Of a DNA stretch of 64,000 nt, positions 777 through 57,078 are shown piece by piece (positions within the stretch are counted from its first letter, which is position 1; the number at the start of each line of letters is the position of its first letter). The notes below the pieces were generated by a model. The model was given only the letters and a program-made list of their open reading frames with translations, did not search any database and was not told where the DNA came from. The translations under genes and the position numbers were made by a program. Source of the DNA: Agromyces mangrovi (lineage in GTDB: Bacteria; Actinomycetota; Actinomycetes; Actinomycetales; Microbacteriaceae); the NCBI RefSeq assembly GCF_030296695.1, contig NZ_AP027737.1, forward strand, positions 2,666,001 to 2,730,000, written 5' to 3'.

Positions 777-1601
777 TCAGTGGACGTGCGCAGCGCCCGC
801 GGTGTATCGGTCGAGCACGATCGCGACGAGCTCGGCGGGGGCCGGGGCGTCGTGGCGCAGCAGGGGCGCGGCCATGACGTCGGGTGCGCTCGCGGCCGCG
901 AGGTCCTGGAAGTAGCCGGGCGCGAGCAGGTAGCTCGCGACGGCCACGCGGGCGTCCGGGCCGGCGCCCTCGCGCGCTGCCCGCACCGCCCCGCCCAGCC
1001 TCGGCTCGGCGGCCGACAGGAACCCGATCGCGCCCTCGTGCGGTGCGAGACCCGTCGAATGACTGCGCTCTGGCACGCCAGAGCGCAGCTTTCCGTCGGG
1101 TCTCGCAACCTGGGGCGCGGCTGCCGCTCGGGCGAGGCGAGCGGCCATGTCGCGACACGCGTCGACGGCGCGGGCGTCGCTCGAACCTGCGGCGGCGAGC
1201 ACCACGCGGTCGTCGTCGCGGGCACCCGCCTCGGCGAGGCGGCGGCGCAGCACCGGTACGAGGCGGTCGTCGGGACCGAGCGCCTCGGCGACCGCGACCG
1301 GCCGGCCGCCCGCGCGCGCGTCGGCCGCCGCGTCGGCGAGGTCGACGTGCACGTGGTATCCCGCCGAGAGCAGCAGCGGCACGAGCACCGCGGGTGTCTC
1401 GTCGGGCAGCGTCGCGAGCGAGGTGGGCACGTCGGGCTGCTCGACGTCGACGTGGCAGAGGCGCAGCTCGGGGGCATCCGACCCCCACCGCTCGCCCGCC
1501 GCAGCGGCGACCGCGTCGAACAGCGCCCGCACCGCGGTGCGCCCCTCAATCGACGACGTGCCGTGCGACACGGCGACGAGCGCGGGCGGGCGTGACTTCA
1601 C
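777..1601 (-). CDS. Sirohydrochlorin chelatase (CbiX/SirB/Che1 family) carrying an in-frame palindromic insert
   Basis: Class II chelatase that inserts iron (or cobalt) into sirohydrochlorin, giving siroheme for the adjacent sulfite reductase. 274 residues. The N-terminal half has the family start LVAVSHGTSS, with the metal-binding His, and PLLLSAGYHVHVD; the C-terminal half repeats the fold with FLSAAEPRL and SYLLAPGYFQD. The GTG at 1601 is the only start giving this N terminus. Between the two halves, at about residues 165-190, the chain contains a charged stretch (VARPDGKLRSGVPERSHS and following) not expected in the family; it is encoded exactly by the palindrome at 1044-1107. The repeat has entered without breaking the frame, in the linker between the two lobes where an insertion should be tolerated. 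The gene is co-oriented with the reductase 142 bp downstream. Confidence 0.88.
   Translation of the reverse strand: MKSRPPALVAVSHGTSSIEGRTAVRALFDAVAAAAGERWGSDAPELRLCHVDVEQPDVPTSLATLPDETPAVLVPLLLSAGYHVHVDLADAAADARAGGRPVAVAEALGPDDRLVPVLRRRLAEAGARDDDRVVLAAAGSSDARAVDACRDMAARLARAAAAPQVARPDGKLRSGVPERSHSTGLAPHEGAIGFLSAAEPRLGGAVRAAREGAGPDARVAVASYLLAPGYFQDLAAASAPDVMAAPLLRHDAPAPAELVAIVLDRYTAGAAHVH
1044..1107. repeat. Palindromic repeat family A, copy 1 (inside a coding sequence)
   Basis: Two 31-base arms (1044-1074 and 1077-1107) separated by only two bases. The outer 11 bases and inner 12 bases pair almost perfectly (GAGACCCG outward, CTGCGCTCTGGC inward) with a mismatched middle. The consensus GAGACCCGTCGA-x-CTGCG(C/T)TC is shared with the element at 56916-56971. 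Here it is translated in frame as part of the chelatase. Confidence 0.85.
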
Positions 1602-3618: not shown

Positions 3619-4421
3619 CGACGGATGCCCCGGGCGCACCCCGCCCCGACTTCCCCGGCGGCACGTCGGTCAGCCGGCTCGACGTGTACGACGGCGTCGC
3701 GCCCGACGGGCTCGCGGGCGGCACGCCGCACCTGCACACGGTCTCGAGCGAGGCGTACGTGGTCGTCGCCGGCGAGGGTGCGGTGCAGACGATCGACGCG
3801 AGCGGGTTCCGCGAGACGCCGCTCGCACCGGGCGACGTGGTCTGGTTCTCGCCGGGCGTGATCCACCGCGCGATCAATCGAGGCGGGCTCTCGGTGCGCG
3901 TCGTCATGCAGAACGCCGGGCTGCCCGAGGCGGGCGACGCGGTCATGACCTTCCCCGACGACGTGCTCGCCGACGCCGACGCGTACGCGGCGGCCGCGGC
4001 ACTGCCCGGGGCGGATGCCCCCGAAGCCGACCGACTCGCCGCCGCGATGCGCCGCCGGGACCTCGCCGTTGCCGGGTTCGCCGCGCTCCGCACACCCGAG
4101 GGCGACGTGGATGCCGAGGCGCTGCGGCGCCTGTACGCGCGTGCCGGGGCGCTGGTCGCACCGCGTGCGGCCGCGTGGCGCGCGCTCTGGGAGGCATCCG
4201 TCGCCCGCATCGCCGCCGCGACCGACGCGCAACTGGCCGCGCTCGCCGCCGGCGACTCCGCCCACCTCGCCGACGGCCGCGTCGCGACCCGCCCGGCCGA
4301 GCCCGCGTTCGGCATGTGCGGGCGCCTGCACCGCTACGAGCCCGGCGACCTCGTCGACCTGAGCGGGCTCGCGCCCACCGACGCACCCGATGACCTCTCC
4401 TCCGAAGGGAACCCCGCATGA
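3615..4421 (+). CDS. Cupin-domain protein
   Basis: 268 residues. An N-terminal cupin barrel at about residues 15-100 has a metal-binding cluster (HLHTVSSEAYVVVAGEG, then the PGDVVWFSPGVIHR second motif), so a metal-dependent enzyme or sugar-binding protein is expected. The rest is alpha-helical and Ala-rich (about residues 120-230) and ends in an HRYEPGDLVDLSG tail that reads like a second partial beta element. Function unknown; position between DUF6807 and a Gfo/Idh/MocA dehydrogenase suggests handling of a modified sugar or sugar acid. It overlaps both neighbours by four bases. Confidence 0.75.
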   Translation: MTTDAPGAPRPDFPGGTSVSRLDVYDGVAPDGLAGGTPHLHTVSSEAYVVVAGEGAVQTIDASGFRETPLAPGDVVWFSPGVIHRAINRGGLSVRVVMQNAGLPEAGDAVMTFPDDVLADADAYAAAAALPGADAPEADRLAAAMRRRDLAVAGFAALRTPEGDVDAEALRRLYARAGALVAPRAAAWRALWEASVARIAAATDAQLAALAAGDSAHLADGRVATRPAEPAFGMCGRLHRYEPGDLVDLSGLAPTDAPDDLSSEGNPA

Positions 4422-9737: not shown

Positions 9738-9764
9738 CCTCATTCCACGCGATAGCGTGGACCG

Positions 9765-10466
9765 ATGGGGGAGAGCGAGCGAGCGGATGCCGCGGCCGAA
9801 GCCGAGGCGCGCAGCGTCGGGCGACGCGTCCCCCTCTTCAGCGGCATCGCCGCCGTGCTGCTCGCGGCCGGGCTCGGCCTGCTGATCGCCGGGCGCTTCG
9901 ACGGGCTGCCCGTCGAGATCGACGAGGAGTGGGCCGAGGAGATCCTCGAGATCCGCGGCCCAGTCGGCATCTGGCTCGCGACGGCCATGGACTGGCTCGG
10001 CGGCGGAATCGTCGGCGTGTTCGTCGTGCCGCTCGTCACGATCGGCCTGCTGCTCCTGCTGCGCCGGCCGTGGGGTGCGGCGTACTTCCTCGCGGCATCC
10101 GTCGCCAGCGCCGGCCTGGTGCAGCTGCTCAAGCAGCTCTTCGGCCGCGCCCGCCCCGAGGACATGCTCGTCACGAGCGATTTCGGCTCATTCCCGTCGG
10201 GGCATGTGGCGAACGCGGCGACGATCGCGGTCACCCTCGGGGTCATCGTGCCGCGGGTCTGGGTGTGGGCGGCGGGTACTGCGTACGTCGTGCTCATGCT
10301 GGTCAGCCGTACGTACCTCGGCGTGCACTGGTTCACCGACACGATCGGGGGACTGCTGGTCGGCGCGGGCGTCGCGCTCATCCTGTGGGCGCCGTTCGCA
10401 CGGCCGCTCGAGCGCGAGCGGCAGGCGTGGCATCCGCCCGGCTCCCGCACGACGACCGCCGCCTGA
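9765..10466 (+). CDS. PAP2-family membrane phosphatase
   Basis: 233 residues and about six transmembrane helices. The three acid-phosphatase motifs are intact: KQLFGRARP (Lys/Arg), SFPSGHVAN (catalytic His), and SRTYLGVHWFTD (Arg, His, Asp). It likely dephosphorylates a lipid phosphate such as undecaprenyl pyrophosphate or phosphatidic acid at the membrane. The -10 TAGCGT at 9753-9758 lies six bases before the ATG, so the message is probably leaderless. Confidence 0.9.
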   Translation: MGESERADAAAEAEARSVGRRVPLFSGIAAVLLAAGLGLLIAGRFDGLPVEIDEEWAEEILEIRGPVGIWLATAMDWLGGGIVGVFVVPLVTIGLLLLLRRPWGAAYFLAASVASAGLVQLLKQLFGRARPEDMLVTSDFGSFPSGHVANAATIAVTLGVIVPRVWVWAAGTAYVVLMLVSRTYLGVHWFTDTIGGLLVGAGVALILWAPFARPLERERQAWHPPGSRTTTAA

Positions 10467-38325: not shown

Positions 38326-38369
38326 GACGTGTGCCCGCCCCGTAGCCTCGCGTCCGGGCCACACCCTCG

Positions 38370-38433
38370 CTGAGGGCGACTCCTTGCGCTGAGGGCCGAA
38401 GCTTCCGCCCTCAGCCCGAGGAACGGCCCTCAG
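38370..38433. repeat. Nested palindromic repeat family C, copy 1
   Basis: 64 bp in three blocks: left arm 38370-38388, inner near-perfect palindrome 38389-38414 (CTGAGGGC-x-GAAGCTTC-x-GCCCTCAG), right arm 38415-38433 pairing with the left arm. It lies between two convergent genes and runs into the last codon of the HEPN gene, so it may double as a bidirectional terminator. Confidence 0.85.
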
Positions 38434-38846
38434 GCGGTGGGTGGTGTGCGCGAGGCCGCCCGCCACGCCGCGATGAAGGGTGGGAGGTGCATGGTGAGCG
38501 TCGCCCAGAACACGTCGTCGTTCATCGCGCGATAGCCCGAGTGGGAGACGATGTTGCGCGTCGTCGCGATGCCGCGTTCGACCTCTGTCGGCACCTCGCT
38601 GAGGAACGGTCGGAACTCGTCCTCCTCGAAGAGTGCCGCGGTGCGGATGATCGCCATCGAGCCGGACGCGTACGCCGGGGAGTTGTGCTCGAACGCGGCG
38701 CGCCCACCCGCGGTCGCGTGGCGCAGGAACGTCTCGATCGCGTCGAGGCTCTCGCTGAATCGCGCGCGAGCAGCTTCGAGTGCCGAGGCATCCTCCCCGG
38801 TCCGTGGCCGTCGCACGAACCGGCGCTCGCGGCTCTCGTCGCTCAC
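38430..38846 (-). CDS. HEPN-domain (HepT-like) toxin candidate
   Basis: 138 residues, all helical. The HEPN ribonuclease motif R-x4-6-H is seen in TTRNIVSHSGYRAM (RNxVSH), and a MNT-type antitoxin gene overlaps its start by four bases (GTGA). In HEPN/MNT pairs the HEPN protein is an RNase or its AMPylation target and the MNT protein is the antitoxin. N-terminal 30 residues are Arg-rich. The family C repeat touches its stop codon. Confidence 0.75.
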   Translation of the reverse strand: MSDESRERRFVRRPRTGEDASALEAARARFSESLDAIETFLRHATAGGRAAFEHNSPAYASGSMAIIRTAALFEEDEFRPFLSEVPTEVERGIATTRNIVSHSGYRAMNDDVFWATLTMHLPPFIAAWRAASRTPPTA

Positions 38847-48033: not shown

Positions 48034-48087
48034 CCCGTCTCGTGTCCGAGTCCGCCCCTCCGCGCCCCGCGCGCCCTCCATTTCCGT

Positions 48088-48151
48088 CTGAGGGCGATTC
48101 CTTGAGCTGAGGGCGAAAGCTTCGGCCCTCAGCCAAGGAATCGCCCTCAAG
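48088..48151. repeat. Nested palindromic repeat family C, copy 2
   Basis: 64 bp, same length and plan as copy 1: outer arms 48088-48106 and 48133-48151 (CTGAGGGCGATTCCTTG against CAAGGAATCGCCCTCA) and inner palindrome 48107-48132 (CTGAGGGCGAAAGCTTC outward to GGCCCTCAG). It lies between two convergent genes. Confidence 0.88.
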
Positions 48152-48199
48152 CGCCGATCGTGTGCCGGCCGTGCGGCGGCGGCGCGAGTTTCGGCGCGC

Positions 48200-48930: not shown

Positions 48931-49015
48931 GCCTGAGGGCCGTTTCTTGTCTGAGGGCGAGAGCTTCAGCCCTCAGCCCGAGGAACGGCCCTCAGACAAG
49001 AAACGGCCCTCAGGC
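48931..49015. repeat. Nested palindromic repeat family C, copy 3 (extended)
   Basis: 85 bp. Inner palindrome 48951-48976 as in the other copies, then a right arm at 48977-48995 almost identical to that of copy 1 (CCCGAGGAACGGCCCTCAG). A further arm at 48996-49015 pairs perfectly over 20 bases with the left arm 48931-48950. The element thus has two alternative right arms, consistent with recombination or slippage between family members. It lies between two co-oriented minus-strand genes. Confidence 0.88.
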
Positions 49016-56799: not shown

Positions 56800-56915
56800 G
56801 ACGACGCCCCCGATCGCTCCGGACGCGCATCGCGCCCTCGCATCCGGCCGCCCAGGGGCATCCGCTCGCTCACTCGTCACATGTTCCTCACCCGCACCCC
56901 CGCTCGCAACACCCG

Positions 56916-56971
56916 AGACCCGTCGAGAAGCTGCGTTCCCGGCGCTGGGAACGCAGCAATTCGACGGGTCT
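56916..56971. repeat. Palindromic repeat family A, copy 2
   Basis: Outer 11-base arms (AGACCCGTCGA against TCGACGGGTCT) and inner 11-base arms (GCTGCGTTCCC against GGGAACGCAGC) are perfect, with a three-base mismatch between and a six-base loop. Intergenic, before lysC. Its arms match the element inside the chelatase gene at 1044-1107. Confidence 0.85.
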
Positions 56972-57078
56972 GGGGCAACGCAGCGGGCCGTCGTCACATG
57001 GACGGGCCCGTATGCGGGCGACCGTATGATGGTCGCGGCGAATCCCGCCGACGCAATCCACCCGGGAGTACCAGCACC

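Follow-up and report, generated by a model that had tools for sequence, protein, structure and literature searches.

A palindromic element translated within cbiX of Agromyces mangrovi is one of a dispersed family with a candidate AbiEi-Vsr-like nuclease partner

Dispersed palindromes of the REP, BIME and REPIN types, which together with RAYT genes make up the REPtrons, lie mostly 3' of genes, are often paired, are in some cases intragenic and can border a gene; for part of the palindromic repeats of bacteria, for instance the CGTC class, to which two families of Rickettsia elements belong, no mobilising enzyme is known (PMC3733652). The Rickettsia palindromic elements (RPE) are translated in frame in unrelated proteins, and nearly half of them are intragenic (PMC10969869). 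Here we analysed a stretch of 64,000 nt of the Agromyces mangrovi genome (the window, C1:2666001-2730000 of genome G000, which has 3.61 Mb in one contig), where cbiX, a gene encoding a sirohydrochlorin chelatase-like protein, carries a palindrome in frame. Taken as a whole, the best explanation, to which we assign a probability of about 0.62, is that this insert is a member of family 1 (F1), a set of dispersed elements with two-fold symmetry, with an AbiEi-Vsr-like nuclease as their partner. A literature search that did not extend to subscription papers gave no account of such repeats in Agromyces or Microbacteriaceae, nor any that connects DUF559 to palindromes.

The cbiX gene occupies positions 777-1601 of the reverse strand (Pfam CbiX, E = 7e-16; translation P0001, with an inferred GTG start). 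Its palindrome, inverted repeat I6 of the window, spans 1044-1107, in agreement with the first-pass annotation, which had described a 64-bp palindrome translated in frame in the chelatase, and it contains a 62-bp F1 element (1045-1106, core 1049-1102) with one substitution in one of its outer boxes, GTCGGGTC for GACGGGTC. It folds far better than its shuffled versions (z about -8.6; none of 200 shuffles was equally good). In the protein, the insert corresponds to codons 164-189 of P0001 (1038-1115, same strand), that is, 26 alignment columns, and it is polymorphic, being present at three Agromyces CbiX loci (G000, G001 and G015) and absent from the other 27 of the 30 that were fetched from the 59 matching genomes among 60. 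In a second set of 28 homologues, L009 has the insert, 26 span the site without it and L036 stops before the site; judging by identical coordinates, L009 and G001 are one genome. The F1 DNA lies at the identical place of cbiX in G000, G001 and G015, and between G000 and G015 the inner stem is paired in both despite letter changes on both sides. Neither of the two outcomes that the annotation had named as fatal to its view, the same extra residues in all orthologues from distant genera and a lack of other genomic copies, came about. An AlphaFold model of CbiX, with a predicted local distance difference test score (pLDDT) of 89.5, presents the insert as a disordered loop (pLDDT below 50 at 167-169 and 171-188) joining the helix 144-162 to the strand 192-195. 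From this model we read its position as inside the C-terminal lobe, and not between the two lobes of the CbiX fold, as had been supposed.

F1 has a fixed 54-bp dyad core. Each half contains two boxes, GACCCGTC on the outside and CTGCG on the inside, separated by 4 nt; the search pattern first put forward had given this spacer as 3 nt. The distance between outer boxes, for which 30 to 47 was allowed, is constant in all 156 F1 copies scored, at loci originally found by a fixed-spacer pattern. A half-site search free of that spacer placed all 24 perfect half-sites of G000 in 14 F1 elements, and of the 307 perfect half-sites in the fetched loci, 294 have a perfect outer box opposite them at this same spacing. 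Without a filter on the inner box, 150 copies have two perfect outer boxes; TGC is found in both halves of 144 of them and in one half of the other six. Among 63 orthologous F1 pairs, selected for presence of the element in both genomes, identity is 97-100% in the outer boxes and 48-64% at spacer positions 11-14; for most matched sites, flank identity is 80-97%.

The view that F1 is constrained mainly as a hairpin or through an RNA function was rejected, because at variable positions the two halves agree about as well as shuffled halves do, mild excesses apart. Some hairpin role may still exist, since the inner segments at positions 20-24 are identical somewhat more often than expected (26 of 156 copies vs 14.0; 4 of 2000 shuffles reach 26). 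An Rfam scan of the window matched only the signal recognition particle (SRP) RNA and a tRNA. This agreement of the halves, little better than that of shuffled ones, is also contrary to the idea that F1 is a REP/REPIN-type repeat moved by RAYT, a tyrosine transposase of the HUH type acting on single-stranded hairpins. The extragenic 3' position and the paired copies are as in REPs (PMC3733652); however, the Y1 transposase profile (Y1_Tnp, PF01797) matches none of the 60 Agromyces genomes, as against 5 of 14 control genomes, and this explanation is largely refuted. Unlike REPs, which are stem-loops of 20-40 bp with an unpaired GTAG or CGTC end, F1 is a dyad of 54-62 bp with two boxes per half, and the gene that it borders is AbiEi-Vsr-like. 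REP repeats with their RAYT genes are the nearest model, from which both enzyme and site architecture differ.

A whole-genome pattern search with up to three mismatches, of the kind that the annotation had called for, located F1 at 14 places in G000, and the reverse-pattern control gave 0. A covariance model, with 150 of 6108 first-look candidates scored, recovered exactly these 14 places; taking the better strand, each scores at least 57 bits, and the next-best match drops to 18 bits. There are 66 pattern matches in G015, 62 in G001 and 47 in G023. The 156 scored copies are a subset of the pattern matches (57 from G015, 53 from G001, 33 from G023 and 13 from G000), obtained with a filter for the inner TGC in both halves by which some real copies, including the cbiX copy of G001, were lost. 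A two-box half-site of about 27 bp in inverted orientation could be taken for the terminal inverted repeat of a classical insertion sequence, F1 copies being its miniature inverted-repeat transposable elements (MITEs). We consider this improbable, as every perfect half-site of G000 belongs to one of the 14 elements, no decayed relics are seen between 57 and 18 bits, and the boxes are constant while other positions vary. The half-site search of G000 turned up no parent element sharing these ends.

F1 is mainly extragenic and near gene 3' ends. According to our own codon-score gene caller, which missed a pair of copies in a kinase gene of G001, 68 of the 156 copies lie between convergent genes, 61 between codirectional and 20 between divergent ones, with five inside genes and two partly inside; the median distance to the facing 3' end is 25 bp (n = 129). 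The likeness to Rickettsia elements drawn in the first-pass annotation therefore holds in part: F1 is dispersed, in frame, tolerated and present or absent among orthologues, but it is mostly outside genes, shorter, from a different phylum and linked to a nuclease family, and a hairpin is not its main conserved feature. With strict filters, the F1 model matches four of the 60 Agromyces genomes and none of 40 other genomes. Among 398 genomes of the family it matches 15, all except G000 weakly. The outer-box pattern with a 38-base spacer occurs in 18 of these 398 genomes, chiefly in genus g41 (reverse control, 2 of 398), and several single matches outside that genus look like chance. In genus g41 (G110, G252, G301, G345 and others) the outer box GASCCGTC and the length are kept, and the inner box is genome-specific (CGCCC, ACGTC and others). 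Seven viral contigs have a single half-site each, with a second half in none of them, and the plasmid collection searched gave zero F1 matches.

Three unrelated genes carry F1 in frame: cbiX, a P-loop kinase gene and a cupin gene. The kinase gene reads it in another frame, with one copy in G000 and in G015 and two tandem copies, exactly 72 bp or 24 codons apart, in G001 (L225 1508-1634). The spacing of this pair is a whole number of codons, vs the usual 73 bp. Ten kinase proteins were aligned of 120 listed, and F1 is missing from that of G023 and from six further chosen relatives; the G023 protein retains the residues PDP at the site, so a later deletion is possible there. The cupin gene of G001 has F1 near its C-terminus, and locus comparison identifies the element-free allele in the window (4395-4402). 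A second site of the window, at 9739-9790, is without the element that G015 has there; the element is also present in G023, and G001 carries copies with one matching flank. The other F1 palindrome of the window lies between divergent genes at 56913-56974 (inverted repeat I4, 56912-56975) and is common to G000, G001, G015 and G023; it is the intergenic copy already claimed at 56916-56971. The element-free alleles, where a target-site duplication was looked for, are too diverged to fix the ends of F1.

Neighbouring F1 copies are regularly spaced, with 53 spacings of 72-74 bp (24), 81-84 bp (26) and 91-94 bp (3). The linkers between them are unrelated, with only about half of their letters common even in the better orientation, and yet 17 of the 22 orthologous arrays compared have the same total length, the other five differing by 1-3 bp. 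A second family, F2 (GAGTACGCA-N33-TGCGTACTC), was found through the inverted-repeat list and a pattern search as a pair beside cbiX, at 1689-1739 and, 74 bp further, at 1763-1813; its pattern matches number 29 in G000, 28 in G023, 8 in G001 and 7 in G015. F1 and F2 are unrelated in sequence and alike in their spacing ladder, which for F2, with 65 of 72 copies entered, is 73-75 bp (15), 83-84 bp (4), 94 bp (1) and 103 bp (1). The periodicity, in a test where orthologous arrays are not independent, was matched by none of 2000 uniform random spacings, with a best-fit step of 9.8-10.1 bp. We infer that the ladder reflects register with the DNA helix. In genus g41, G345 has four element pairs at 106, 116, 125 and 137 bp.

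The three high-copy relatives of G000 have F1 pairs flanking, on both sides, one nuclease-like gene. Its product, according to structure models, combines an AbiEi-like domain with a Vsr/homing-endonuclease-like one; structure-based comparison places the homing-endonuclease catalytic fold in the C-terminal domain. In the low-copy G000 the whole cassette is missing at this site, and locus comparisons show pairs of empty and filled alleles. The fold of the C-terminal domain is that of EDxHD/Vsr-like homing endonucleases such as I-Bth0305I; unlike these, the enzyme has an AbiEi-like domain in addition, its gene lies between multicopy palindromes, and its homing is putative. The N-terminal part has the fold of AbiEi, the antitoxin of type IV toxin-antitoxin systems, which binds inverted repeats cooperatively, but the F1-bordered protein additionally carries the nuclease domain. 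Among four nucleases, the best PADLOC match is AbiEi, on one protein (E = 3e-5, residues 29-152), with no PADLOC family spanning the whole sequence, and NCBIfam gave a family match for none. Contigs of G000, G001 and G015 were not among the best 120 matches of a nuclease search of the protein collection, which does not imply absence, and no relative was confirmed in 296 stretches of viral contigs. The AbiEi-like domain, as well as the different nuclease-palindrome pairs found at one locus in related species, might point to a defence or toxin-antitoxin-like system, with palindromes that mark self DNA or titrate an enzyme attacking unmarked or invading DNA. Such a system is very doubtful, given the lack of a PADLOC family for the whole protein and of a confirmed viral relative, and it would leave the dispersal at gene ends and inside genes unexplained.

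Nuclease relatives adjoin palindromes of several families, namely F2, F4 and those of genus g41, Arthrobacter and Tsukamurella. In G000 one relative is flanked by two and three F2 copies. The same site is occupied in G023 by a diverged relative, 49% identical, between palindromes of family F4, whose core is again 54 bp long (L316, 14259 and 15347), and in G015 by no more than about 40 bp. In genus g41, GASCCGTC elements flank a relative on either side in G110, G345 and G301. In G358, the end of a relative lies 28 bp ahead of the centre of a palindrome. Seven loci were reached regardless of palindromes, two as cbiX neighbours (L022 and L023, which are close relatives) and five as plasmid-collection records found by protein (L298-L302). 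By one fixed criterion, a palindrome centre lies within 100 bp of the relative at five of them (L022, L023, L299, L300 and L301), L298 just missing the criterion and L302 having no adjacent palindrome; with L316, reached by synteny with the F2 cassette, the count is six of eight, and in the control it is 4 of 154 called genes in 25 loci. In the plasmid collection, the palindromes beside L299, L300 and L301 were found in their own organism only, at 10 places in two records, 4 in one and 20 in eight, respectively, places that may count both strands, with true sites probably about half as many; seven separate Tsukamurella records besides L301 were fetched. Arthrobacter sp. StoSoilB13 has near-identical palindromes on two replicons (the weaker palindrome of L298, at 3959, and L299 5659), one of them 26 bp from a nuclease relative, and from its sequences seems to hold two palindrome families. 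In Nonomuraea (L302 5365), a strong palindrome stands apart from the relative, at a distance of about 1.8 kb. A third family of the window, F3, with TGAGGGC boxes, is found at 38359-38444, 48063-48175 and 48931-49015; two of its copies border about 900 bp, absent in G015, with a NUDIX-like gene read by eye and no nuclease.

The main rival is a non-mobile role that serves the host, in which the palindromes are fixed binding sites of a domesticated AbiEi-Vsr-like protein, such as 3'-end insulators, supercoiling or nucleoid sites, or terminators, evolving by ordinary mutation and recombination. The near-invariant boxes, the spacing ladder, the preference for convergent and codirectional over divergent gene pairs and the sites common to several species all agree with it. 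However, copies also occur within unrelated genes whose relatives are element-free, the families are confined to one clade or organism in the collections searched, and at one locus both the nuclease and its palindromes differ between species; thus we regard fixed sites as unlikely, though as a serious alternative.

We propose instead that these are nuclease-palindrome pairs, which would be analogous to REP and RAYT with an unrelated enzyme. The AbiEi-like part would bind the palindrome as duplex DNA, neighbouring complexes standing about whole helical turns apart, and the nuclease part would cut DNA, so that repair of the break could copy or convert palindromes, and the cassette, into new or existing sites. 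Copying by break repair would maintain the boxes even as the remaining positions change, and loss of the cassette, as at its G000 site, would let the copies dwindle. The cbiX copy would have entered before the split of G000, G001 and G015, and may persist because its translation meets no stop codon and yields a loop. Two observations weigh against such pairs. A nuclease adjoins none of the 17 clusters of G023 (28 F2 copies) and none of the seven clusters of G001, meaning that linkage is unneeded for high copy number or that the F2 enzyme of G023 lies elsewhere; moreover, F4 was not seen away from its own locus in the fetched DNA.

At even odds, these systems constitute an undescribed class in Actinomycetota, selfish or co-opted, in which an AbiEi-Vsr-like nuclease and its own dyads of 50-62 bp change together and spread in helix register, occasionally extending host proteins by peptide loops. 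A nuclease whose gene is flanked by its own palindromes, both differing together, is a testable candidate for a mobiliser of another enzyme class, and suggests a possible function for DUF559/MTES_1575 genes. The spacing ladder leads to a sharp prediction on complexes at duplex DNA, and the genes that carry F1 offer natural examples of in-frame peptide insertion.
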